Virus record (IMG/VR): IMGVR_UViG_3300042156_000024
Coordinates: 1 to 20,948 of that record
Length of the DNA: 20,948 bases
Origin: a virus
Strand: one strand, 5' to 3'
The position numbers and the translations under genes were made by a program. Each line of letters opens with the position of its first letter. Positions within the stretch are counted from its first letter, which is position 1. Below are positions 888 to 17,163 of the stretch, piece after piece. The notes under the pieces were generated by a model, which saw nothing but the letters and a program-made list of their open reading frames with translations, made no database searches and was not told the DNA's origin.

Positions 888-1399
888 GGCTGCGGCCAGT
901 CCTCGTTAATTGCGGTGTCCATGGCTTCGATGTAGACCTGCCAAGGGTTCAAAGGCCACTCGCGATTCATCGCGTAATCAAAGATGTCAGCGTACAAAAT
1001 GTAATCAGGCAATATCTCGGCCCACCCTGGATCTAGCAAAGGTCTATTCCTTACTTCACAAGTTACGCTATAGCGCCAAAGGAATTTACCTGTTAGCTCT
1101 CCTCCAACCGGTGTCTCAGTGAACCGTACCTCTTGATCTTCGAAGCCCAAAGGCGTCAGGACGTTCAGCGTGAACCATCCTGCGCCTACAACCTGCGCAG
1201 CCCAAGCCTCGAACAGCGACGCCTGCGGCGAAGTCATCGTCCAGCGTAGCGAAACCATGGTCGGAACGTTGCGGAATTCAATCCGCTGGCGCGCCCGTCC
1301 GCTGTCCATCGGAGTGCGGCGGATGTTATTGACCGGCGTAAACCCGTAACTCTCGCGCAGTGGGCACGGCAGCCCTTCCGGGTAGGCTGGAATCGGCAT
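884..1399 (-). CDS. Minor tail protein
   Basis: The protein has 171 residues. It resembles a family of small tail proteins of Pseudomonas and Burkholderia siphophages: an N-terminal segment around GFTPVNNIRRTPMDSGRARQ, a central FRNVPTMVSLRWTMTSPQA followed by FEAWAAQVVGAGWFTL, and a conserved arginine/tryptophan region (LWRYSVTCEVRNRPLLDPGW). No catalytic motif, signal peptide or membrane helix is visible. Its start overlaps the tape-measure stop as TGATG and its stop overlaps the fibre start as ATGA. It therefore sits between tape measure and fibre, where distal tail proteins are encoded. The family assignment is from memory of the sequence style; the exact role in the tail tip is unknown. 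Confidence 0.65.
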   Translation of the reverse strand: MPIPAYPEGLPCPLRESYGFTPVNNIRRTPMDSGRARQRIEFRNVPTMVSLRWTMTSPQASLFEAWAAQVVGAGWFTLNVLTPLGFEDQEVRFTETPVGGELTGKFLWRYSVTCEVRNRPLLDPGWAEILPDYILYADIFDYAMNREWPLNPWQVYIEAMDTAINEDWPQP

Positions 1400-4248
1400 C
1401 AGCGGCCCGCCGTCTGCAAACCGAACTTACGGTTCATCGCGTCAGCGGTGCGCCCATCGCCCAGCAAGTCCGCTACGAAAACATCGATCATCTTCTCCCC
1501 CTGGTCGCCAGTCCGCTCTTCCGATTGTCCGGCGCGCGATGCGTCTTCGATCAAGTTTACCGTAGTGTTGCCTGTTCCGGTTGGGGATTTGATGTCGTTC
1601 AAGGTTTTGTCCAGTTTGGCGCTGGTCTGAGCGGTGGTAACGCGTTCCCCTTTCTGTAGGAGCCAAGTGCCTGTCTGCGGTACGGCGTCGATACCGTCGT
1701 GCGCCATGCCGGCCAGCGCTACGCCTTCTGCCACTGCTGTAGTGGAGAGGATGGCGGCAGTAGCGGGAATGGCCGCGCCGCCTAAAGTGGCGATAGAAGC
1801 CAAAGCAGCCGCGGGAGCGTAGGCGGTGGCGATAGCCGTACCGGTGATACCGGCTTGGGCGATAGACGCCGCGGATGCGGTAGAGCCTACCAAGAGCTGC
1901 ACGGCTTGGTACACGAGCCACTGAGCCGCCATCTTGACCAGGGCGCCTACCACGGCTTGCACCATGGTTCTTCCGAGATCCGAGAACGCTTCCCCTACCG
2001 ACTTAGTGCCGTCAAGGATCGACATGAAGCTTTCCGCTAGGCCGTCGCTCAGAGTGTCAAGCGTACCGGTGACCATTTCTGCAGCTTGCGCACTGAAGTT
2101 TGTAGCCTCCTCAGCCCAGTTTGCCCAACCTTCGGACGCGCCGAGGAAGAACGAACCCTGCGCTTCATCCAGTTGGTTGTAGTAGTCCTGCTGCATCACT
2201 AGGCGCGATGCCAGGTTCTCCTCGAGGATCGCAGTCTCTTGGGTGTAAAGATCTTCGCTGATTTGTCCGGTGTTGAACTGCTTGTTCAGTTTGTCGACTT
2301 CGGACTGATATTCCTTACGGATCGCCAGGTCTTCTTTCAGACGTTCGCGCAGCTTCTCGCCGGAGCCGAGTCCTGCCAGTTGCGAGTCTAGGCCTTCCTG
2401 TGCGGTGCTGAGCTTCGACGCTTGGTTCTCCTGGAACGCAGCGAGCTTGCCTGCTTCGGCTGTCGCCTGTTTGCGTGCCGCGACTTCCTGCTCCAAAGCC
2501 ACGTTGCGCTTCAACTGCGCTGTGATCAGCGCTTCGCTGGCGAGCAGCGACTTCTGGTCAGCGGTCTGAATCTGTTTCGACTTGATGTCGGCAATTTCTT
2601 GCTGGAACTTCGCGAGAGCCTGCGCCTGAACGCCGAGCTTCTCGTTAGTCTCCGATTGGAGCTGAAGCGCTGCGGCTTGCTGCCGCAAGCTGTCAAGCAT
2701 CTTCTGGCCGGCATCTTCACGAACAGCTTTCGGCGCTGCTACTTTATCCGCTTTGAATTGTTCCTCAGCGGCTTTGCGCAACTGGGCGATTTGAGCTTCG
2801 CTGTACTGCACACCGCGAGCTGCGGCCGCCGCGACCTGTTTGTCAATCTCCGCGAAACGCTTGGCGAGCTTGTCAGTCTTAGGCGCCGTTTCGTCTAGGG
2901 ATTTGTTCAGGGCTTCGACAGCCGCGATGCCTCGGCGGTCTTTAGCGGCGGCGTCTTCTTGTGCGGCGATACGTTTACGTTTTTCTTCTTCCTCCACCAG
3001 CCCATCAGTAATCTGCTTCTGAATCTCAGCCTCACCATTACGTCCAGCGCCGCGAGAACCGGTTCCTAGACGACGCGCATTCTCTAGGGCTTCCTGCAGG
3101 TCTGCCATTTTCTCTTCAAAGGTCGCTTCGCGGCCGATATCGAGGATCGCGTCCCACGCGCCTTTGGCGACGTTCTTAACAGTCAGCCATGCGGATTCAA
3201 CGTACCCGAGGTCTTCGCGGATCTTTTCCGCACGGCGTGTCAACGCTTCGGCGTATGTCTGTTCGGCTAGGGAGGCTGCCCCCTGTGCATCGCCTTGGCG
3301 CTGCAAGGCTTCGATCTGCGCGTAGGTCGACGTGGTTAGGAAGTTCATCGAGTCGTTCAACTCGCGAATTGCCTTAACCGGATCCTTAGCGATCTTCTCA
3401 AAGTCCTTGACAGTTTCTTCAGCCGCTTTGCCTGTGGCTTCCTGCATCTTCAGAGCGGCAATGGCGATCGCGTCGAACGAGGACGCGGGGATCTTACCGG
3501 AGGCCGCCAGTTGCGCGAGCACAGCCGCAGCGGCGCCGATGGTGCCGACGGACTGGCTGACGCTCTGCGCCAGCGTAGCGAGATGATCGGAGCTTGTGCC
3601 TGCTGCGTTGCCGCTTAGCGTTAGCGCCTTCTCGAATGCTGTAGCTTCGTCGCTGCCTTGCTTATAGGCAACGGTCAGCGCGACGGCAGCGGCAGCAGCT
3701 AAGGTGAAGGGGTTGATCAGCCCGAGAACGTAACCTCCAAGCGCTTTGGCCGCAGGGCCGATGCCTCCGAACATGTCCTTAAGCTGGCCGCCTTGCTGCA
3801 GGAAGACAGTAAGCGGGTTTTGACCGGCTGCCAGGGAAGTGGCAATGTCGGTAAACTGGGCAGGAACCCCGCGAAGGTTCGCGGCCAGTTGCTTGGCGGT
3901 TAAACCGTTGGCGTCGAATTGCTTGCCGTTCTTGGCTAGCACACCGTTAGTGGATTCAACGGCCTTGCGGGTCTCGTTCAGCTTGGCGAGGTAGACGTTG
4001 TAGTCTTCGGTCGGGAGGCGACCTGCGTCACGGTGCGCCTTGAGCTGCTGCTCCATCTTGTCGAGGCGGGAATACGCAGCGACTGTAGGGTCGATCTGAC
4101 CGACCAAACGATCCAGGGATTCGCCTTGCTTCTTGGCTTCGCGCGTGGCCGATGCCAAAGCACGTTCGGCCTGATTCATACCGCGTTCGAAACCGGCGGT
4201 ATTTGCAACGAGATCCAGCGTCAGCTGGCCCAGCGAGGCGGTGGCGAT
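1399..4248 (-). CDS. Tail tape measure protein (lambda gpH-like), probable AUC start
   Basis: The protein has 949 residues if it starts at the ATC codon 4248-4246. The first ATG in frame is at 4179 and would give 926. The region before that ATG translates as ATASLGQLTLDLVANTAGFE, the usual N-terminus of this family, and is preceded by AGGAGG with an 8-nt spacer. An in-frame TAG at 4263-4261 rules out any further extension, so I place the start at 4248. The protein is rich in Ala, Gln, Lys and Glu, with long coiled-coil stretches. It has a hydrophobic block around ALGGYVLGLINPFTLAAAAA and a C-terminal part resembling the lambda tape-measure C-terminal domain (SEGWANWAEEA, then VQAVVGALVKMAAQWLVYQA). 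The protein fixes tail length and is ejected with the DNA. At about 1.5 angstrom per residue it suggests a tail near 140 nm. Confidence 0.9.
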   Translation of the reverse strand: MATASLGQLTLDLVANTAGFERGMNQAERALASATREAKKQGESLDRLVGQIDPTVAAYSRLDKMEQQLKAHRDAGRLPTEDYNVYLAKLNETRKAVESTNGVLAKNGKQFDANGLTAKQLAANLRGVPAQFTDIATSLAAGQNPLTVFLQQGGQLKDMFGGIGPAAKALGGYVLGLINPFTLAAAAAVALTVAYKQGSDEATAFEKALTLSGNAAGTSSDHLATLAQSVSQSVGTIGAAAAVLAQLAASGKIPASSFDAIAIAALKMQEATGKAAEETVKDFEKIAKDPVKAIRELNDSMNFLTTSTYAQIEALQRQGDAQGAASLAEQTYAEALTRRAEKIREDLGYVESAWLTVKNVAKGAWDAILDIGREATFEEKMADLQEALENARRLGTGSRGAGRNGEAEIQKQITDGLVEEEEKRKRIAAQEDAAAKDRRGIAAVEALNKSLDETAPKTDKLAKRFAEIDKQVAAAAARGVQYSEAQIAQLRKAAEEQFKADKVAAPKAVREDAGQKMLDSLRQQAAALQLQSETNEKLGVQAQALAKFQQEIADIKSKQIQTADQKSLLASEALITAQLKRNVALEQEVAARKQATAEAGKLAAFQENQASKLSTAQEGLDSQLAGLGSGEKLRERLKEDLAIRKEYQSEVDKLNKQFNTGQISEDLYTQETAILEENLASRLVMQQDYYNQLDEAQGSFFLGASEGWANWAEEATNFSAQAAEMVTGTLDTLSDGLAESFMSILDGTKSVGEAFSDLGRTMVQAVVGALVKMAAQWLVYQAVQLLVGSTASAASIAQAGITGTAIATAYAPAAALASIATLGGAAIPATAAILSTTAVAEGVALAGMAHDGIDAVPQTGTWLLQKGERVTTAQTSAKLDKTLNDIKSPTGTGNTTVNLIEDASRAGQSEERTGDQGEKMIDVFVADLLGDGRTADAMNRKFGLQTAGR

Positions 4249-4262
4249 GGCTAAGGCCTCCT
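4246..4262 (-). promoter_or_regulatory. Ribosome binding site and AUC start of the tape measure gene
   Basis: On the minus strand AGGAGG lies at 4262-4257, then the 8-nt spacer CCTTAGCC, then ATC at 4248-4246. The spacer contains the TAG stop of the preceding chaperone frame (4253-4251). No ATG, GTG or TTG occurs between the in-frame stop at 4263-4261 and the ATG at 4179, and that ATG has no clear Shine-Dalgarno sequence. Confidence 0.6.
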
Positions 4263-4532
4263 AGAAGCTTGCAAGACACGCAAGAAGTCTTGCGGCGTGG
4301 CGTATCTGAGTTCGTCGTCCGATTCCCGATTAGGGATGAAATCCGCGACCTTTACCTTCTTGTTTCCCATCAGCTGCGCGCCTGTGGTGCAGATCAGCGC
4401 GGCAGCCTGCTCGATGCGTTCCGCGATGTTCAGGCCCCCGTGGCGCTGCATGTACCGAGCCCATTGCCGCGCTTCGACCAGTGACATGTTCTGTTGGGCT
4501 TCGGCGATCGTTCGACCGCCTATGCCGTTCAT
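4251..4532 (-). CDS. Tail assembly chaperone, downstream frame (lambda gpT-like part of a frameshift product)
   Basis: From ATG 4532 the frame encodes 93 residues (MNGIGGRTIAEAQQN, then MSLVEARQWARYMQRHGGLN). The frame is already open from 4586, directly after a TAA at 4589-4587, and upstream of the ATG it reads EPPEDLWFELV. That looks like genuine protein sequence of this family and would be lost with the ATG start. It lies in the -1 frame relative to the preceding chaperone gene, whose stop is at 4537-4535. This is the layout of lambda G and G-T: a short upstream protein, a ribosomal slip, and a longer fusion that carries a tape-measure-binding part. I infer that the main product is a fusion made by -1 frameshifting within 4586-4538. 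Independent initiation at 4532 is possible but has no strong ribosome binding site. Confidence 0.7.
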   Translation of the reverse strand: MNGIGGRTIAEAQQNMSLVEARQWARYMQRHGGLNIAERIEQAAALICTTGAQLMGNKKVKVADFIPNRESDDELRYATPQDFLRVLQASRRP

Positions 4533-4534
4533 AA

Positions 4535-4912
4535 CTAGTTCGAACCAGAGGTCTTCCGGGGGCTCGTCTTTGCTGATTGTGCTTCGTTAACCGCGGTGAT
4601 CAGCGCCAGGAACAGCGTATCGCACATCGCGCCGCGGCCTTCGATACCGGTCGTACCGAGAATGTCGGCCGTAGTGAAGATCGGACCTCCCTCCTCGTCG
4701 CACACCATGGTCGCAATCCGTGCGGCCAGGTGCTCCTGGTTGCCCTCGGCAGCCTTCCACGTATTGGTGATCGTGTGGTAAGACGCAAGGCGCACACAGA
4801 TATCGGCGGTCAGCTCTTCGCCTTCCGTGTTGTGCCATTTGATTTGGCGCTTCACGAAAGGTTCTTTGACGAACGCGCCTTGCGCTACCAAGTCTTTAAG
4901 ATTCAGGCCCAT
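4535..4912 (-). CDS. Tail assembly chaperone, upstream frame (lambda gpG-like)
   Basis: The protein has 125 residues and starts MGLNLKDLVAQGAFVKEP, then KRQIKWHNTEGEELTADICV. Its position between the tail tube and tape measure genes, its size and the overlapping -1 frame downstream fit the phage tail assembly chaperone family. These proteins coat the tape measure while the tube polymerises and are absent from the virion. The last 12 or so residues after ITAVNEA are low in complexity (SAKTSPRKTSGSN), as expected for a tail that exists only when the ribosome does not shift. ATG 4912 follows the tail tube stop after 3 nt, with only a weak GAG upstream, so expression probably depends on translational coupling. 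Confidence 0.75.
   Translation of the reverse strand: MGLNLKDLVAQGAFVKEPFVKRQIKWHNTEGEELTADICVRLASYHTITNTWKAAEGNQEHLAARIATMVCDEEGGPIFTTADILGTTGIEGRGAMCDTLFLALITAVNEAQSAKTSPRKTSGSN
4556..4586 (-). other. Candidate -1 programmed frameshift region
   Basis: A -1 slip must occur after the TAA of the -1 frame (4589-4587) and before the TAG of the zero frame (4537-4535). Inside that window the zero frame reads GCA AAG ACG AGC CCC CGG AAG. The best candidate is the run of five C at 4562-4558. There a proline tRNA on CCC would pair equally well after moving back one base. A second candidate is GCA AAG, where lysine AAG re-pairs as AAA. Neither is a canonical X XXY YYZ heptamer such as the GGGAAAG of lambda. 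Confidence 0.45.
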
Positions 4913-7173: not shown

Positions 7174-7189
7174 GGTTATCAGGATAACC
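7174..7189. repeat. Perfect palindrome, partly repeated near 20525
   Basis: GGTTATCAGGATAACC is a 7-bp inverted repeat with a 2-nt centre that contains the methyltransferase stop codon, and CTTTT follows the core. A near copy (GGTTATCAGGATAATCC, then TTTT) lies at 20525-20545. The two share 14 identical bases. Confidence 0.5.
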
Positions 7190-7796
7190 TTTTAAATGCA
7201 AACGATGTAATGCCCTCACGGCCCAAATCCGTCTCGGCGTGGTTGAGCTCCATCAGTAAGAATCCCTGCTCTTCAACCCAGTTTATCAATCCTTGCAGGG
7301 ACCAGTAAAAAATATGCTCGCCAGGTTTGTAGTGTTTCGAAGCTAGCCACTCTTCCGCAGAGTCGCACAACGGCAGCGAAACGAAGAACCAGTCGTCTAC
7401 CTGGGCGAGAAGCTTCTCGGGCTCCGGGATGTGCTCCAAGCTATCCCAACACGTGGCGTGCGAAACCCTTTCAGTGTAAGGGTCTTTGTAGGAGCCGGTT
7501 TGCTTCAACCACTCTACCGCTTCGCTGCTCACGTCGTAGCCATCGCCCCACGACTCTTTAACGTAGCGTCCGCCGCCGATGCCGATATCCACACCGAGGG
7601 AAGCCTTTGTGTACTTCTCGACCAGTTCCAATCGGGCTTTGGTCAGCAAGCCGCCCATCGGCGTTTCGTCTAGCTTCTGGTAATGGGCGAAATACTCGCC
7701 GCTGTAGGTCATCGGCGGCGAGCTGTGCCACCCGTAGCCCTTCTCAGGGCTCCAAACGAAGGTGTCGGTCAGCCCACTGGGCAAGCTTTGAGTCAT
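7179..7796 (-). CDS. Class I SAM-dependent methyltransferase
   Basis: The protein has 205 residues from ATG 7796, which has AGAGGA about 10 nt upstream. The ATG overlaps the end of the glycosyltransferase gene by 53 nt. An earlier start at 7865 would add 23 residues that do not look conserved. The SAM-binding motif I is LGVDIGIGGGRYVKE (residues 67-81). An acidic residue follows in DGYDVS (85-90), and the CWDSLEHIPEP motif (117-127) is the usual DxLEHI post-motif seen in Methyltransf_11/23-type small-molecule and glycan methyltransferases. No DNA- or RNA-binding domain and no target recognition domain is present. A DNA modification role is therefore unlikely, and the neighbour points to a sugar or surface substrate. 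The substrate is unknown. Confidence 0.75.
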   Translation of the reverse strand: MTQSLPSGLTDTFVWSPEKGYGWHSSPPMTYSGEYFAHYQKLDETPMGGLLTKARLELVEKYTKASLGVDIGIGGGRYVKESWGDGYDVSSEAVEWLKQTGSYKDPYTERVSHATCWDSLEHIPEPEKLLAQVDDWFFVSLPLCDSAEEWLASKHYKPGEHIFYWSLQGLINWVEEQGFLLMELNHAETDLGREGITSFAFKRLS

Positions 7797-8577
7797 AATC
7801 GGAAATCCTCTTGTCGCAGTTGTGTTGTTTGAGGCGGCAGCGACAAAAGTTGTCAGGAACCGCAAACGTAATTGTACTACCGGCCGGGCAAATTAGCTCC
7901 GGCGCGTTGAATCCGCCCTGTCCGCCACAGATAATCCATGCAGGAACCCTGGCCGCTAGCGCAGCCGGGACCAACCAGCCGATGCCGCCGATCACCGCCG
8001 AGGCATTCGCAACGAGCGACAGGAGTTGTTCGACCGGCAGTTCGCCTTTGTGGTAGCGCTTGTCAGCAGGATAATCAGCTGGCCCTACCAACCACTCTTG
8101 GCCCTCTACCAAGTCCGCTACGGATATGACCCTATAGCCTCGTAGTCGCGCTTCCCAAACCCCGCGGTAGATGTACTCCGGATCAGGGTTCCGGGTATCG
8201 GCACGCCACTCGCTACGCACTGTAGCTGGCCGCACGACGACGTACCTACCCTGCTCGGGTGATGGGGGAAGCGGCGGTAAATCGAACGCACCTGGGGCAA
8301 CGCCGAAGCAGGCCGCCATGCCGGAGATGATGCCTTCGGCGCCGTAGCGGATCTGGCGGGTAGGTTGGCGCGTCGGCGGCATTACCCAATCGGCATGGCG
8401 CGCGATGTTCTTCGCCTGGGTGCGCAGCGTGGTTTGCGGACGGATGAAGTGGACTCCGGGAATGTCTGAATAAATTTCCGGCCAGGGGGTGTCGAGGTAG
8501 ACCGGCTTCGGTAGCGCTTTTATGAAAGGGCGCTGAAACAAGTTGTCTCCGAGGCCTTTCATTGAATGGATGATCAT
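7744..8577 (-). CDS. Glycosyltransferase, GT9/heptosyltransferase-like
   Basis: The protein has 277 residues and starts MIIHSMKGLGDNLFQRPFIK. The GLGDN loop near the N-terminus is the nucleotide-sugar glycine motif of GT9/ADP-heptose transferases. In the second half, SLVANASAVIGGIGWLVPAA followed by LAARVPAWIICGG matches the family's C-terminal donor site (normally a Ser/Asp-Gly-x-x-H-x-A-A segment), with Trp in place of the usual His. Near the C-terminus there is a cysteine cluster (NFCRCRLKQHNCDK) that may bind a metal. The start overlaps the small membrane protein stop as ATGA. It probably adds a sugar to a virion protein or host surface polysaccharide. The enzyme class is reasonably sure; the sugar and acceptor are unknown. 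Confidence 0.68.
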   Translation of the reverse strand: MIIHSMKGLGDNLFQRPFIKALPKPVYLDTPWPEIYSDIPGVHFIRPQTTLRTQAKNIARHADWVMPPTRQPTRQIRYGAEGIISGMAACFGVAPGAFDLPPLPPSPEQGRYVVVRPATVRSEWRADTRNPDPEYIYRGVWEARLRGYRVISVADLVEGQEWLVGPADYPADKRYHKGELPVEQLLSLVANASAVIGGIGWLVPAALAARVPAWIICGGQGGFNAPELICPAGSTITFAVPDNFCRCRLKQHNCDKRISDYDSKLAQWADRHLRLEP

Positions 8578-8738
8578 CCTTTTATCTCTATTTTAGTCCC
8601 GTGATGAACGATGAAATCCACGAACGACTCTGGAAATTCACTTCTGCCGGCGACCGCAAATATGAAAGCAGCGCAATGCGCTAATGGTATTACCCACCAT
8701 TTAAGCGTTATTTCGGCGGTAATTTCTGATAGGGCCAT
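8574..8738 (-). CDS. Small membrane-associated phage protein, unknown function
   Basis: The protein has 54 residues and starts MALSEITAEITLKWWVIPLA. I chose ATG 8738 because GGAG lies about 9 nt upstream. Longer versions would read through the terminator hairpin. One likely transmembrane helix spans about residues 14-30 (WWVIPLAHCAAFIFAVA). It is followed by an acidic/aromatic segment and a short hydrophilic end. I recall similar 50-residue proteins in other phages, but cannot name a family with certainty. It begins 18 nt after an intrinsic terminator and is coupled to the glycosyltransferase by an ATGA overlap, so it is the first gene of the cassette's second half. It is not an obvious holin. 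Confidence 0.65.
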   Translation of the reverse strand: MALSEITAEITLKWWVIPLAHCAAFIFAVAGRSEFPESFVDFIVHHGTKIEIKG

Positions 8739-8755
8739 GGTGTGGTCTCCACTTA

Positions 8756-8780
8756 AAAAGAAGCCCGCTCGAAGGCGGGC
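8756..8780 (-). terminator. Intrinsic terminator upstream of the small membrane protein gene
   Basis: On the minus strand GCCCGC, a CTTCGA loop and GCGGGC form a 6-bp GC stem followed by TTCTTTTT. It lies only 18 nt before the ATG of the next gene, so it must be bypassed by read-through or antitermination for that gene to be expressed from upstream. Confidence 0.8.
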
Positions 8781-9014
8781 GAAGGGTCGCACGGAGAATT
8801 CTTGGGGTCCCGCATGTGCGGGCTGCGACGGGCAAACTTCTCTAGACTTGCCATGCTTTCGCGGTCGGCGGCGTTGGTTGATCAAGGTGGCGGGCCAGAT
8901 GTGCACTGCGCAAGAGACCGTTGTGCACCCACGGCCTAAACAGACTCAGAATCGAATGTGCTTAGGTTGATCTCTCTGATAGCCAGTTATTCCCCGCCTG
9001 GGGCTAATCCGCGG
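8756..9014 (-). ncRNA. Candidate non-coding RNA between hammerhead cleavage site and terminator
   Basis: This is the 259-nt stretch between the predicted hammerhead cleavage (between 9015 and 9014) and the terminator U-tract. I see no convincing gene in it: the only ATG-initiated frame (8854 to about 8753, 33 codons) has no ribosome binding site and runs through the terminator stem. Inverted repeats are dense. GTCGCA pairs with TGCGAC around a nested CCCGCA/TGCGGG hairpin (8809-8822), and two GTGCAC copies face each other near 8900-8935. A GGCAA/TTGCC pair is also present near 8831-8851. It could be a discrete RNA with a ribozyme-made 5' end, or simply a structured leader. Confidence 0.35.
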
Positions 9015-9060
9015 GACTCCTAAGAGTTTCGACCTACCGGTCTCATCAGCCGCGTTAAGC
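9003..9060 (-). ncRNA. Type I hammerhead ribozyme
   Basis: All core elements are present in order on the minus strand. Stem I 5' strand is CGCGG (9054-9050). CTGATGA is at 9049-9043. Stem II is GACC/GGTC with loop GGTA (9042-9031). GAAA is at 9030-9027. Stem III is CTC/GAG with loop TTAG (9026-9017), closed by the A9027-U9016 pair. The cleavage triplet is GUC (9017-9015), and the stem I 3' strand is CCGCG (9014-9010). Beyond an internal loop, stem I continues as GCT/AGC (9060-9058 with 9005-9003), the place of the usual tertiary contact. The open helix is stem I, so it is type I. Cleavage is expected between 9015 and 9014. It starts 5 nt after the stop codon of the MptE-like gene. Confidence 0.9.
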
Positions 9061-9065
9061 AAACT

Positions 9066-9641
9066 CTAGTCACTCGCATCACAAGTGTCAACAACCTTTT
9101 GCAACTCTTTTTCCAACATGCCTAAACGGTACGCAGTCAGCGCCGTGTCACGCGAACAATTCACTACGCGTTCACGCTGTGCCAACCGGCAATGCTGCTT
9201 GCTCCACTTCCTGCAAAGCTCTTCCGTCGGGTTCTTCGTGTCTCGATGATCACCGTGCCAGTGCGTACCGCCTTGCACCGTGCAGTCGTACCCAAGAAGC
9301 AGTACGCGTTCGGCGCCTAGCTGAAAGGCCAGTTCGATCGCGCGTAGTCCACTGTTATATTCACCATAAGCAGTATGCAGGTTCAGAGCGTGCTTTGCAG
9401 ACGCCTGGCGGGTGCACGTCCATCGCTTCGGACCTTCTGGAAGACCTCCCACGTTCGCATCCCACCATGCGAGATCACCTGCGTAAAGATGATCGCACCA
9501 CGGGGCTAGCTGCCAGGAGTTGTTCACAGCGATTGTAGGGAGGCCGGCGGCGCGGACCAGTTCGCAGTCGTGCGCGTTGAGGCTCGGGCCGGAGGCGATG
9601 CAGACGAAAATATTAGAGAGGCTCAACCGTAACGTTCTCAA
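9066..9641 (-). CDS. MptE-like (DUF115-type) protein of unknown substrate
   Basis: The protein has 191 residues and a probable TTG start at 9641. A second TTG at 9626 would give a protein five residues shorter, and neither has a strong ribosome binding site. The N-terminal NIFVCIASGPSLNAHD is the Gly-rich first strand and loop of the 6-hydroxymethylpterin-diphosphokinase MptE-like family. Further on come TIAVNNSWQLAPWCDHLYAG and AERVLLLGYDCTVQGGTHWH, the second half of a Rossmann-like fold. Phage members of this family sit in structural operons, sometimes under the name norphogenetic protein, and DUF115-type proteins elsewhere are linked to glycan or flagellin modification. It overlaps the previous gene by 29 nt and is followed after 5 nt by the hammerhead ribozyme. 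Confidence 0.65.
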   Translation of the reverse strand: MRTLRLSLSNIFVCIASGPSLNAHDCELVRAAGLPTIAVNNSWQLAPWCDHLYAGDLAWWDANVGGLPEGPKRWTCTRQASAKHALNLHTAYGEYNSGLRAIELAFQLGAERVLLLGYDCTVQGGTHWHGDHRDTKNPTEELCRKWSKQHCRLAQRERVVNCSRDTALTAYRLGMLEKELQKVVDTCDASD

Positions 9642-13737: not shown

Positions 13738-15108
13738 TCACAAGCCTAGCGCTGCGGAATAAGCAGCTTGCGCGTAGCCTGCGAGTGTGCGGTAGCCCGT
13801 TATTGTTGGGTGCGTATTATCTTGGGTGTCGTATCCGATCCAAGTACTGGTGTCAATCCAGATAACATCGGGGTCGGCCAGGGTGGTTACGACGGATTCC
13901 AGTTCGACGTTATAGATCTCTCTCGTGTCGGAGCCGTCCGGCGTTGGCAGGATACCCCGACAAAGGATTTTGCCGTATCCCTTCGCTTGCAGCTTATTGA
14001 TGCAGGACAGGTAATCAGCTTTCTTCGTCTCGTCGATCCCGCCGGCTGCACTGTTGCCGCCGATGGACAAGACCGCCACGTCGGCAGCGCTGACAGTGAG
14101 AAGTGGCAGCGTGTTGTCAAGCATCGTCTTGCAGCCCGCAATTGTCTGTCCGGCGACACCGATAGTCGTGCCCGTCGCCCCGAGAGCTGCGGCTACGGAC
14201 ATCATTTCCGAATCTACAGCTGTAGCGCCGGGGCCCGCGCCAGCGACGATGGAGTCGCCAAAGATGTGGAACTTCCAAGTGGAGCCGATGTTTAGCAGTG
14301 TCGCGTTACCAGACACGGCGAAGTGCCCGCCTGTGTTTCGGATATTCCCACTGTCCCAAACGTTATACGTGGCCGTCGAACCGTCGCACGGCACGCGGAT
14401 TGCTCGAACTGGACTGTCGTTCTCATCTGCAATTGAATAGAACGTGGGTGCGCCACCGTTCTTACTAACGCCAATTTTCCGTATACCGTTTACGGCCACT
14501 GTGAGGCGAGTGAAAGCACCGCGCAGCTTCACAGAACCAACGTTAGAGCCGTAGACAGTTCCTGATGGTGCCTGTAGAGGCGGCGTGTAGGTAGCGTTGT
14601 TCGGTGCCAAGGCACCAGCGAAGACACCGGTAGAGGAGTTCGCACCGTCCTGCACCCAGTTGGTGGAAGGGTTTAGCGCCGGTGGTTGGCCTGTGACTTC
14701 TAGCACGTTGCCTGTAGCAGCGATATAGGGCGCATCGCCCATTTGCACGACCCAACGCACTTCGACGAACCTTACGGCATGGGAAAGCCCTGTGAATAGG
14801 GTGTATATCGAACCGGCCCTGGCAGCATTGGTGAACGCGCTACCGTCAAGCGCCACCTGCATCGATCCGTCGTTGTCGCCGAAGTCGGAAGGCGCTGTGA
14901 ATTTGGCTTCGTTGCCGGTGATAAAGCCGGACCACAACGTAAGCGCGCCGCGGGCGTAGACCCTGGCAACGTTCTTTGTTGTGCTGAGAGATCCGCTGAA
15001 ACCCGGTACGAACTGCGCCGACGTGAAATTAACTGTCGTAGGGTCGGGCAACGGAACCGGTTGATTCCCTGCACCTAGTAATCCTGTTTTCTGAATGAAT
15101 TCGATCAT
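13738..15108 (-). CDS. SGNH/GDSL hydrolase (virion-associated esterase)
   Basis: The protein has 456 residues with start ATG 15108 behind AGAGGAA. Residues 1-270 are beta-rich and Gly/Ala/Thr/Asn-rich, resembling a virion-attachment or carbohydrate-binding part. The C-terminal 180 residues form an SGNH hydrolase: block I FGDSIVAGAG with nucleophile S286, a block II glycine around G318-G320, block III SIGGNS with N352, and block V DNTHPTITGYR with D430 and H433. All four SGNH residues are therefore present. Such domains deacetylate polysaccharides or cleave esters, which fits removal of acetyl groups from O-antigen or capsule. The gene lies between capsid and portal, an unusual place, and follows its own upstream terminator. 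Confidence 0.82.
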   Translation of the reverse strand: MIEFIQKTGLLGAGNQPVPLPDPTTVNFTSAQFVPGFSGSLSTTKNVARVYARGALTLWSGFITGNEAKFTAPSDFGDNDGSMQVALDGSAFTNAARAGSIYTLFTGLSHAVRFVEVRWVVQMGDAPYIAATGNVLEVTGQPPALNPSTNWVQDGANSSTGVFAGALAPNNATYTPPLQAPSGTVYGSNVGSVKLRGAFTRLTVAVNGIRKIGVSKNGGAPTFYSIADENDSPVRAIRVPCDGSTATYNVWDSGNIRNTGGHFAVSGNATLLNIGSTWKFHIFGDSIVAGAGPGATAVDSEMMSVAAALGATGTTIGVAGQTIAGCKTMLDNTLPLLTVSAADVAVLSIGGNSAAGGIDETKKADYLSCINKLQAKGYGKILCRGILPTPDGSDTREIYNVELESVVTTLADPDVIWIDTSTWIGYDTQDNTHPTITGYRTLAGYAQAAYSAALGL

Positions 15109-15168: not shown

Positions 15169-17163
15169 TTAAGCGCCGGTGCCCCAGTTCACGTCGGTGA
15201 GGTAGGAGACTGCACTGGCACGACGACGCTGCCAGTTGATGAAGCGCTCGGCGAGGAACGCCGTGCTGTTGGTCTGGAACATCGACACCATAGTGGTAGG
15301 GGTACCGGTGGCGCTGTTGTTGGTTGGGTTGTCCAGCATCTGCAAACTGGCTTCCCGCGAAGCGTCGATGGTCACCTGACCGTCATCGGCCAGCCAGATG
15401 TCGGAAGCATTCAGCAGAACCACCATGCCGCCGCCCGAATCAACAGGCAGATAATCCGAAACGATCACAGGAACGCCCATGAACGTGCCGCCGTTCAGGG
15501 TCAGGCCGGGGAACTCGGATTGACCGAGCGGGTTCTGCATCATGCTCAGCGCCAGCGCGGTGGTCGAATCCATCAGGTACACAGCGTTACGCGGAGCGTT
15601 ACGTGCGGCTATGAACGGGGCCCACAGTGCGGCGACGTCGGCGCGGATGTCTTCGGCAGTGTTGCCACTCGAAGTGATGCCGGCGATGCCGTTGGTGATC
15701 GAAGCGGGCGACACGTTGGCTACAGCGGCCTTAGCCGGGTCCACGAAGTCGATGTCGGCGCGCTCGATTACCGCAGCGGCCAGGCCGTCACGGACGAGGC
15801 GTTCAGCAGACGGATCGCTGAAGCGGATCAGTTCGTTGGTCAACACCGCGATAGTCGCGATTTTGTTCCAGCGCAGTTCGGTGTCGTTGAAGTCGAACGC
15901 GGTCAGAGGCTTCGGCGCGCCTTCACCTACCCAGTACGCCTGGCCGCCAGTGGTCTGGCCTGCGATGCGCACGTTGAACGGGATGCGGTTCAGCGATGGG
16001 ATGCCACCGGTGCCGAACTGGCCGAGGATGGTGCGAGGACGCAGATACTCGACGAAATCGCCGGCGAAGTTCTGGTAATCGACCAGGGGGGCCGCCCAAG
16101 TAGCGTCCAGGGTGGTGCCGGCTTCGACGGTGGCTTTCATCAGGCCTTGCATTTTCTGGCCGCGTGCTTCCAGCTCCAGGGTTTTTACCATGCCTTCGTG
16201 CTGTGGATACTTCGACTTCGCGATCTCAACCGCCATGGCGGGGTTGTTCTGCGAAGCCATTTTGCACATGGCATAACGGGCGAACAGAATCCCCGGCTCC
16301 AGTTTCTCGGTGTTTTTGGCGAGAAGAGGAGCGCGCTCGCGGGATTTGGTCACGTCCTGAACAGGCGCAGCCTTTTCGACATTGGCCTTTTCCAGCACTT
16401 CGAGGCGCGTGATATGGACTTCGGCGGCCTTCAGTTCGTCGGTGATGGTGTCGAACTCTTCCGACTCGGCTTCGTCCAGGGTGCGACCTTCGGCGGCTTC
16501 CATCAGTTCTTTTTGGCGTGCGGACTTCTGCACCATGGTGTCCTTAAAGGACTTGATTTGCTCTGCAAAATTCATGTCTTGGCCCTCCTCGGGCTTCGGC
16601 TTAGCGGGTAGTTTTTTCGTAACGGTTGCCGAAGCGCCGGCAGGTTTATCAAGCCGAACAACGGTGAACTCCTTTTTGCCTGACGCGGCAGGTGCTCCAA
16701 TGTCGAACGCTTTGATACTGGTAATTGTCGCTTCGGCATTGGCCGGGATAGTTACGAGCGACAATTCATAAACTTCAGTTTTCAGGAAGCGAGTACCCCA
16801 ACTTCCTTTGATCGGTTCCGAACCCATATCGCGAAATCCGATTGACACCGCGCGAACTAGGCCGGCTTTAACCGACTGCCAAGCCTCTTCGATGCGGTTG
16901 AACAAACCTACCGGTTCGGTTACTTCGGCGAATGTGGCGGTAAAAGGTACGCCTTTCGCAGTAGGCTTGCCGAACTCTACCAGGCCCACCGGTTGCTGGT
17001 GGTCGTGCTGCCACAGGAGCGGGAGAGGGTTTTTGTATTGGACGCCGAGCGGTTCTACAACGTCACCGACGCGATCCACGCCTGGAGTTGTCGCCCACCC
17101 GGTGATGGTCCGCGTTTCAGCGTTGACCGCTTTTACGTCTAGAACGCTATAGGCTCTGTTCAT
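15169..17163 (-). CDS. Prohead protease - major capsid protein fusion (HK97 fold)
   Basis: The protein has 664 residues. Residues 1-150 are a prohead protease of the U35/HK97 type (TGWATTPGVDRVGDVVEP, then WQHDHQQPVG with the likely catalytic H53, AVSIGF with S107, and YELSLVTIPANAEATI). A Lys/Pro/Ala linker (150-196) follows. Residues from M197 start a scaffold-like delta domain (AEQIKSFKDTMVQKSARQKE and a Glu-rich coiled coil). From about residue 300 comes the HK97-fold capsid (for instance GGQAYWVGEGAPKPLTAFDF, WNKIATIAVLTNELIRFSDP and TFMGVPVIVSDYLP). Cleavage of the delta domain probably occurs near 290-310. A strong internal ribosome binding site precedes M197, so separate capsid protein is likely made too. 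ATG 17163 has GGAG 8 nt upstream. Confidence 0.92.
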   Translation of the reverse strand: MNRAYSVLDVKAVNAETRTITGWATTPGVDRVGDVVEPLGVQYKNPLPLLWQHDHQQPVGLVEFGKPTAKGVPFTATFAEVTEPVGLFNRIEEAWQSVKAGLVRAVSIGFRDMGSEPIKGSWGTRFLKTEVYELSLVTIPANAEATITSIKAFDIGAPAASGKKEFTVVRLDKPAGASATVTKKLPAKPKPEEGQDMNFAEQIKSFKDTMVQKSARQKELMEAAEGRTLDEAESEEFDTITDELKAAEVHITRLEVLEKANVEKAAPVQDVTKSRERAPLLAKNTEKLEPGILFARYAMCKMASQNNPAMAVEIAKSKYPQHEGMVKTLELEARGQKMQGLMKATVEAGTTLDATWAAPLVDYQNFAGDFVEYLRPRTILGQFGTGGIPSLNRIPFNVRIAGQTTGGQAYWVGEGAPKPLTAFDFNDTELRWNKIATIAVLTNELIRFSDPSAERLVRDGLAAAVIERADIDFVDPAKAAVANVSPASITNGIAGITSSGNTAEDIRADVAALWAPFIAARNAPRNAVYLMDSTTALALSMMQNPLGQSEFPGLTLNGGTFMGVPVIVSDYLPVDSGGGMVVLLNASDIWLADDGQVTIDASREASLQMLDNPTNNSATGTPTTMVSMFQTNSTAFLAERFINWQRRRASAVSYLTDVNWGTGA
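16573..16590 (-). promoter_or_regulatory. Internal ribosome binding site for separate capsid protein
   Basis: On the minus strand GAGGAGGG lies at 16590-16583, and the ATG of M197 at 16575-16573. The spacing from AGGAGG is 8 nt. M197 is exactly where the delta domain of an unfused HK97-type capsid protein would begin, and initiation would yield a 468-residue protein. Confidence 0.7.

Follow-up and report, generated by a model that had tools for sequence, protein, structure and literature searches.

The gene for the tape-measure protein, the ruler of tail length, in the 20,948 bp virus contig analyzed here (the window) almost certainly begins at the rare start codon AUC, at positions 4248-4246 on the minus strand, as judged from the sequence of the junction and of its relatives. 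It is very probable that this start is placed by an AGGAGG Shine-Dalgarno (SD) element and probably also by termination of the upstream chaperone, that the start codon is labile among relatives, and that a modest output would be held by SD strength and coupling.

The tail module and the chaperone/tape-measure junction

The tail module of the window contains the following features:

1399..4248, minus strand: tape-measure protein gene, 949 codons from ATC, plus stop
4251..4586, minus strand: T-like chaperone reading frame (Pfam Phage_tail_T, 9e-6)
4535..4912, minus strand: G-like tail assembly chaperone (Pfam Phage_TAC_13, 2.9e-20)
4558..4562, minus strand: CCCCC slip run for the predicted G-to-GT -1 frameshift (AGC CCC CGG -> CCG GAA GAC CTC TGG)

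The tape-measure product was identified as lambda-like by its profile matches (Pfam TMP_2, 1.3e-75; TMP_4, 2.1e-25; Tape_meas_lam_C, 4.7e-9; also phrog_24) and by the place of its gene after the chaperone genes. The T-like frame has an ATG of its own at 4532 and can be entered either there or by a -1 shift out of the G-like ORF. The C5 run (4562-4558), together with a T frame that is open through PPEDLWFELV, places the two chaperone frames in a lambda-like G/GT cassette and is, as predicted from sequence, a typical lambda G/GT -1 frameshift. A run of four to six C residues that leads into EDLWFE, or into a near variant, was found in most relatives of the window's subfamily (described below).

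The junction between the T-like chaperone and the tape measure is laid out as follows:

4261..4263, minus strand: in-frame TAG closing the tape-measure frame upstream
4257..4262, minus strand: AGGAGG Shine-Dalgarno element, 8 nt 5' of ATC, within the codons for the chaperone's C-terminal Arg-Arg
4251..4253, minus strand: TAG stop of the T-like chaperone ORF, 2 nt 5' of ATC
4246..4248, minus strand: ATC start codon of the tape-measure gene, at a column that holds only ATG, TTG, GTG, ATA or ATC in relatives
4177..4179, minus strand: first in-frame ATG (codon 24), with a weak SD; the choice of a gene finder limited to ATG, GTG and TTG

On the minus strand the junction reads GCTTCT AGGAGG CCTTAGCC ATC GCC ACC GCC TCG CTG, in which CCTTAGCC (4256-4249) is the 8-nt spacer between AGGAGG and ATC. 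Translated from the upstream in-frame stop, the tape-measure frame gives '*EALAIATASLGQLTLDLVANTAGFERGMNQ'. No ATG, GTG or TTG occurs in frame between ATC (4248-4246) and the ATG at 4179, and the only CTG codons in that interval are codons 6, 9 and 11. An N-terminus that lacks ATG, GTG and TTG and is closed by an upstream in-frame stop is as expected of a gene with a non-canonical AUN start. The duplex energy of the AGGAGG element is -10.2 kcal/mol, the joint strongest (with loci L009 and L011) of the 44 relatives, and the chance expectation for AGGAGG at a spacing of 5-10 nt is about 0.0015.

The start codon in relatives

A search of IMG/VR with the N-terminal 216 residues of the tape measure returned 80 loci. 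The codon for residue 1 in these loci was mostly ATG; the exceptions were ATC (L009), ATA (L003, L006 and L031), GTG (L017) and TTG (L021, L027 and L038). As a guard against bias, a second set of loci was collected through the downstream motif DLVANTxGFExG, which is blind to the start codon. The start column of the 83 distinct junction sequences in this set contained only ATG (66), TTG (7), GTG (5), ATA (3) and ATC (2). In the close TAGFERG subfamily, which comprises 44 contigs including the window, the corresponding counts were 24, 9, 5, 4 and 2; no codon besides ATG and these four single-base neighbors was present (44/44), and a start codon is conserved at the orthologous position in every member. 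The family N-terminus, MA..SLGxLTxDLVANTAGFERGM, places residue 1 on the ATC in both locus sets. A scan with the chaperone C-terminus yielded 35 stretches and no locus new to the set, which indicates that selecting on the tape-measure N-terminus has not biased the set of relatives.

The original prediction had placed an AUC start at 4248-4246 in a closed frame with no ATG, GTG or TTG available, and this is confirmed by the sequence and by comparison with 43 relatives; the same evidence supports its description of AGGAGG 8 nt before the ATC and of a geometry suited to coupling with the chaperone stop. Comparison with homologous phages had been proposed there as a check, and it found a start codon in this column in all 44 contigs, with ATC also in L009.

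Other tape measures with SLGxLxxDLVA began with ATG (124) or GTG (3) among the matches listed, after three unrelated matches were set aside by eye. Non-ATG starts accounted for 20/44 subfamily members versus 3/127 other tape measures among the matches listed (Fisher p 3e-11, kinship ignored), and AT(A/C) starts for 6/44 versus 0/127 among the matches listed (p 2e-4, kinship ignored). Non-ATG starts are, on these sequence counts, concentrated in the window's subfamily. The Pseudomonas prophages, which are the closest relatives in genome contigs, belong to another subfamily, and those whose alignment with the motif reaches residue 1 all use ATG. A scan for ATH at the start position returned subfamily members only, plus L087, which was rejected as an AT(A/C)-start relative as it encodes an unrelated protein.

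In the four ATA members (L003, L006, L031 and L086) the start and the chaperone stop overlap within the sequence ATAG, and the third base of the ATA is therefore fixed by the overlapping TAG. The ATC start has no overlap of the ATAG type with the chaperone stop.

Alternative readings of the junction

The two ATC-bearing sequences, the window and L009, share 69.6% nucleotide identity over the first 900 nt of the gene (dS about 1.3). Within codons 2-22 they differ by 10 synonymous changes and 1 non-synonymous change, an excess which argues that these codons are translated. An in-frame TAG lies 15 nt upstream of the start in all six AT(A/C) contigs.

These comparisons bear on an alternative in which translation begins at the Met of codon 24 (4179) and the 23 upstream codons are untranslated or vestigial. 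This codon is the first standard start in the frame, and a Met is found at its place in nearly all relatives, in the window and in ATG users alike. However, codons 2-22 are constrained as protein in the non-ATG members, the SD ahead of Met24 is poor (-2.4 kcal/mol), and the ATG-starting relatives include the residues that precede Met24, which is therefore best regarded as an internal conserved residue. A start at Met24 is accordingly improbable.

Less probable still is synthesis of the tape measure as a chaperone fusion, through a -1 frameshift at AGG AGG CCT TAG and with no initiation at ATC. Tandem AGG codons and SD-like elements are frameshift stimulators in E. coli; both are present at the end of the chaperone, and in the window the tape measure lies in the -1 frame relative to the chaperone. 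Good tRNA re-pairing would nevertheless not be available in the -1 frame (AGG to GAG, CCT to GCC), and the orthologous column always holds a start-like codon. In addition, the chaperone and tape-measure frames are offset by 0, 1 or 2 across relatives and the distance from stop to start ranges from -4 to +5, so that a frameshift cannot be the mechanism shared by the family; this varying frame relation points to an initiation site rather than a frameshift junction. An error of sequencing, as raised with the original prediction, or of assembly that turned ATG into ATC would take a single base in a metagenomic contig but is effectively excluded by five other AT(A/C) contigs: ATC recurs in a second contig whose gene has diverged by about 30%, and four more have ATA, pinned by the overlapping chaperone stop TAG.

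Lability of the start codon and strength of the Shine-Dalgarno element

The history of the AUC start and its alternatives was followed on a tree of 40 tips, built from the first 918 columns of the alignment with the start codon left out. Explaining the observed start codons took 17 changes on this tree, which is no better than shuffled labels (17.8); ATC occurred at two separate places, and ATA needed three changes. The identity of the start codon is thus evolutionarily labile in the subfamily. The window and L009 agree at 32/33 nt around the junction, at 331/374 nt (88.5%) upstream and at 619/893 nt (69%) downstream. Recombination may have spread a single ATC event to both contigs; the window and L009 sequences fit one origin as well as two.

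Mean anti-SD pairing energies were -5.5 kcal/mol for ATG, -6.0 for GTG, -6.8 for TTG, -7.3 for ATA and -10.2 for ATC. In phylogenetically independent pairs, the side with TTG, ATA or ATC had the stronger SD in 8-9/11 and the weaker in 0 (p 0.004-0.008), in a test that was run at three cut-offs and in which the pairs are few (11 to 13) and recombination weakens the use of a single tree. That weaker starts are accompanied by stronger SDs suggests compensation as much as deliberate down-tuning. Compensation by a strong ribosome binding site had been proposed at the outset, and the association between SD and start codon supports it, also after correction for phylogeny. It had further been proposed that low initiation would suit a protein needed in only a few copies; this is possible, but the ATG and weaker SD of most relatives fit an approximately constant output equally well. 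Part of the variation in SD strength may follow the choice of Arg/Lys codons in the chaperone rather than compensation, since the SD sits within chaperone codons. The association at this junction agrees with the general compensation between start codon and SD in prokaryotes, for which a single change to AUU was reconstructed in 61,358 ancestral AUG starts (PMC5622118).

Proposed mechanism and purpose

We infer fMet initiation, coupling and protein output at the AUC, by steps that would run as follows. A ribosome ending the chaperone would halt two nt before the AUC, with AGGAGG free to pair with 16S rRNA. The terminating ribosome, or a new 30S subunit, would then initiate at the AUC with fMet-tRNA, which would pair with the AU while the third-base mismatch is tolerated. 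The first residue would be formyl-methionine, giving a predicted N-terminus of (M)ATASLGQLTLDLVANTAGFER. Output from AUC is expected to be lower than that from AUG because IF3 disfavors weak third-base pairs (PMC10158994). Weak starts would persist where the SD is stronger, and output would be kept near a modest level by SD strength and coupling.

Two further contributions to initiation were considered and rejected. The first was phage-encoded help for AUC/AUA initiation: no IF3 was found in the records of 9 relatives and no initiator-like tRNA in the relatives examined, several of the records in each case being fragments, and the window, the record of L009 and that of L003 (47 kb) have no tRNA genes. 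As neither IF3 nor an initiator-like tRNA was present in the relatives examined, the host machinery is probably sufficient. The second was a hairpin masking the SD. The window's minimum-energy fold contains such a hairpin, but its stability does not exceed that of shuffles (z -0.01), and it is neither shared with L009 nor conserved.

By analogy with the GTC start of sigR in the SigR/RsrA pair, the AUC could have been selected as an IF3-sensitive brake that keeps the tape measure scarce relative to the chaperones. This reading concerns the purpose of the start rather than its site, and overlaps with the explanation preferred here. The sigR precedent (PMC5472188) and the enrichment of non-ATG starts in the subfamily (20/44 versus 3/127 among the matches listed) would favor it, but the 17 changes of start codon on the 40-tip tree, the use of ATG by many relatives, the lack of a phage IF3 in the 9 relatives' records and the stronger SDs that accompany weak starts, which look like constant output, would not; selection as a brake is therefore rather doubtful. 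The preferred reading, in which SD strength and coupling hold a modest output from a labile start, can tentatively be extended. The junction could be an evolving translation rheostat, in which start codon, SD and stop-start geometry are traded to hold the ratio of tape measure to chaperone, and the AUA and AUC versions would tie tape-measure supply to chaperone translation and to host IF3.

Other features of the window and its relatives

The prohead protease (Peptidase_S78) and the major capsid protein are fused in a single ORF of 664 codons (15169-17163, minus strand). A GDSL-lipase-like protein of 456 aa is encoded within the head module (13738-15108, minus strand). Three genes lie between the head and tail genes (7179-9641, minus strand), of which one matches Methyltransf_23 and two have no Pfam match; these are possible cargo genes. 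Among the relatives examined only three records bear tRNA genes: tRNA-Trp (CCA) in those of L031 and L007, and tRNA-Gln (CTG) in that of L012.

Comparison with known systems

Few natural AUC and AUA starts have been documented, and here they recur in a phage virion gene. A literature search found no description of a tape-measure gene that begins at AUC or AUA, nor of a single junction at which start codons are exchanged rapidly. Gene finders limited to ATG, GTG and TTG misplace such starts, and the tape-measure annotation then loses about 23 residues. The near relatives that differ in start codon and SD constitute a natural experiment in SD strength and coupling set against a weak start.

The order of genes is that of G/GT/H in phage lambda, with chaperone G, a -1 shift to GT, and then the tape measure. 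Lambda gene H starts at ATG, whereas the tape measure of the window starts at AUC. The stoichiometry of lambda G/GT/H matters for tail assembly (PMC5009743).

AUN starts are already known from infC, ccpN and cvfC1, as is a GTC start from sigR, and the window adds another case. The IF3 gene infC likewise has a natural AT(T/C/A) start: ATC in Streptomyces, AUU in E. coli and AUA in S. aureus, with a strong extended SD reported in the S. aureus case (PMC5472188, PMC13009471). However, infC is a cellular gene under IF3 feedback, whereas the gene in the window is a phage structural gene whose start varies between relatives and which is not known to be part of any feedback. The S. aureus genes ccpN (AUA) and cvfC1 (AUU) also combine a non-canonical start with an extended SD and have reduced output, AUA/AUU starts with extended SDs there giving roughly 10-30% of AUG reporter output (PMC13009471). 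Their non-canonical starts are conserved across species, whereas the tape-measure start alternates with ATG, GTG and TTG. In Streptomyces sigR, a rare start with a strong conserved RBS represses one partner of a stoichiometric pair (PMC5472188); the start there is GTC and its regulation by IF3 was demonstrated, whereas the tape-measure start is ATC and its control by IF3 is hypothetical.
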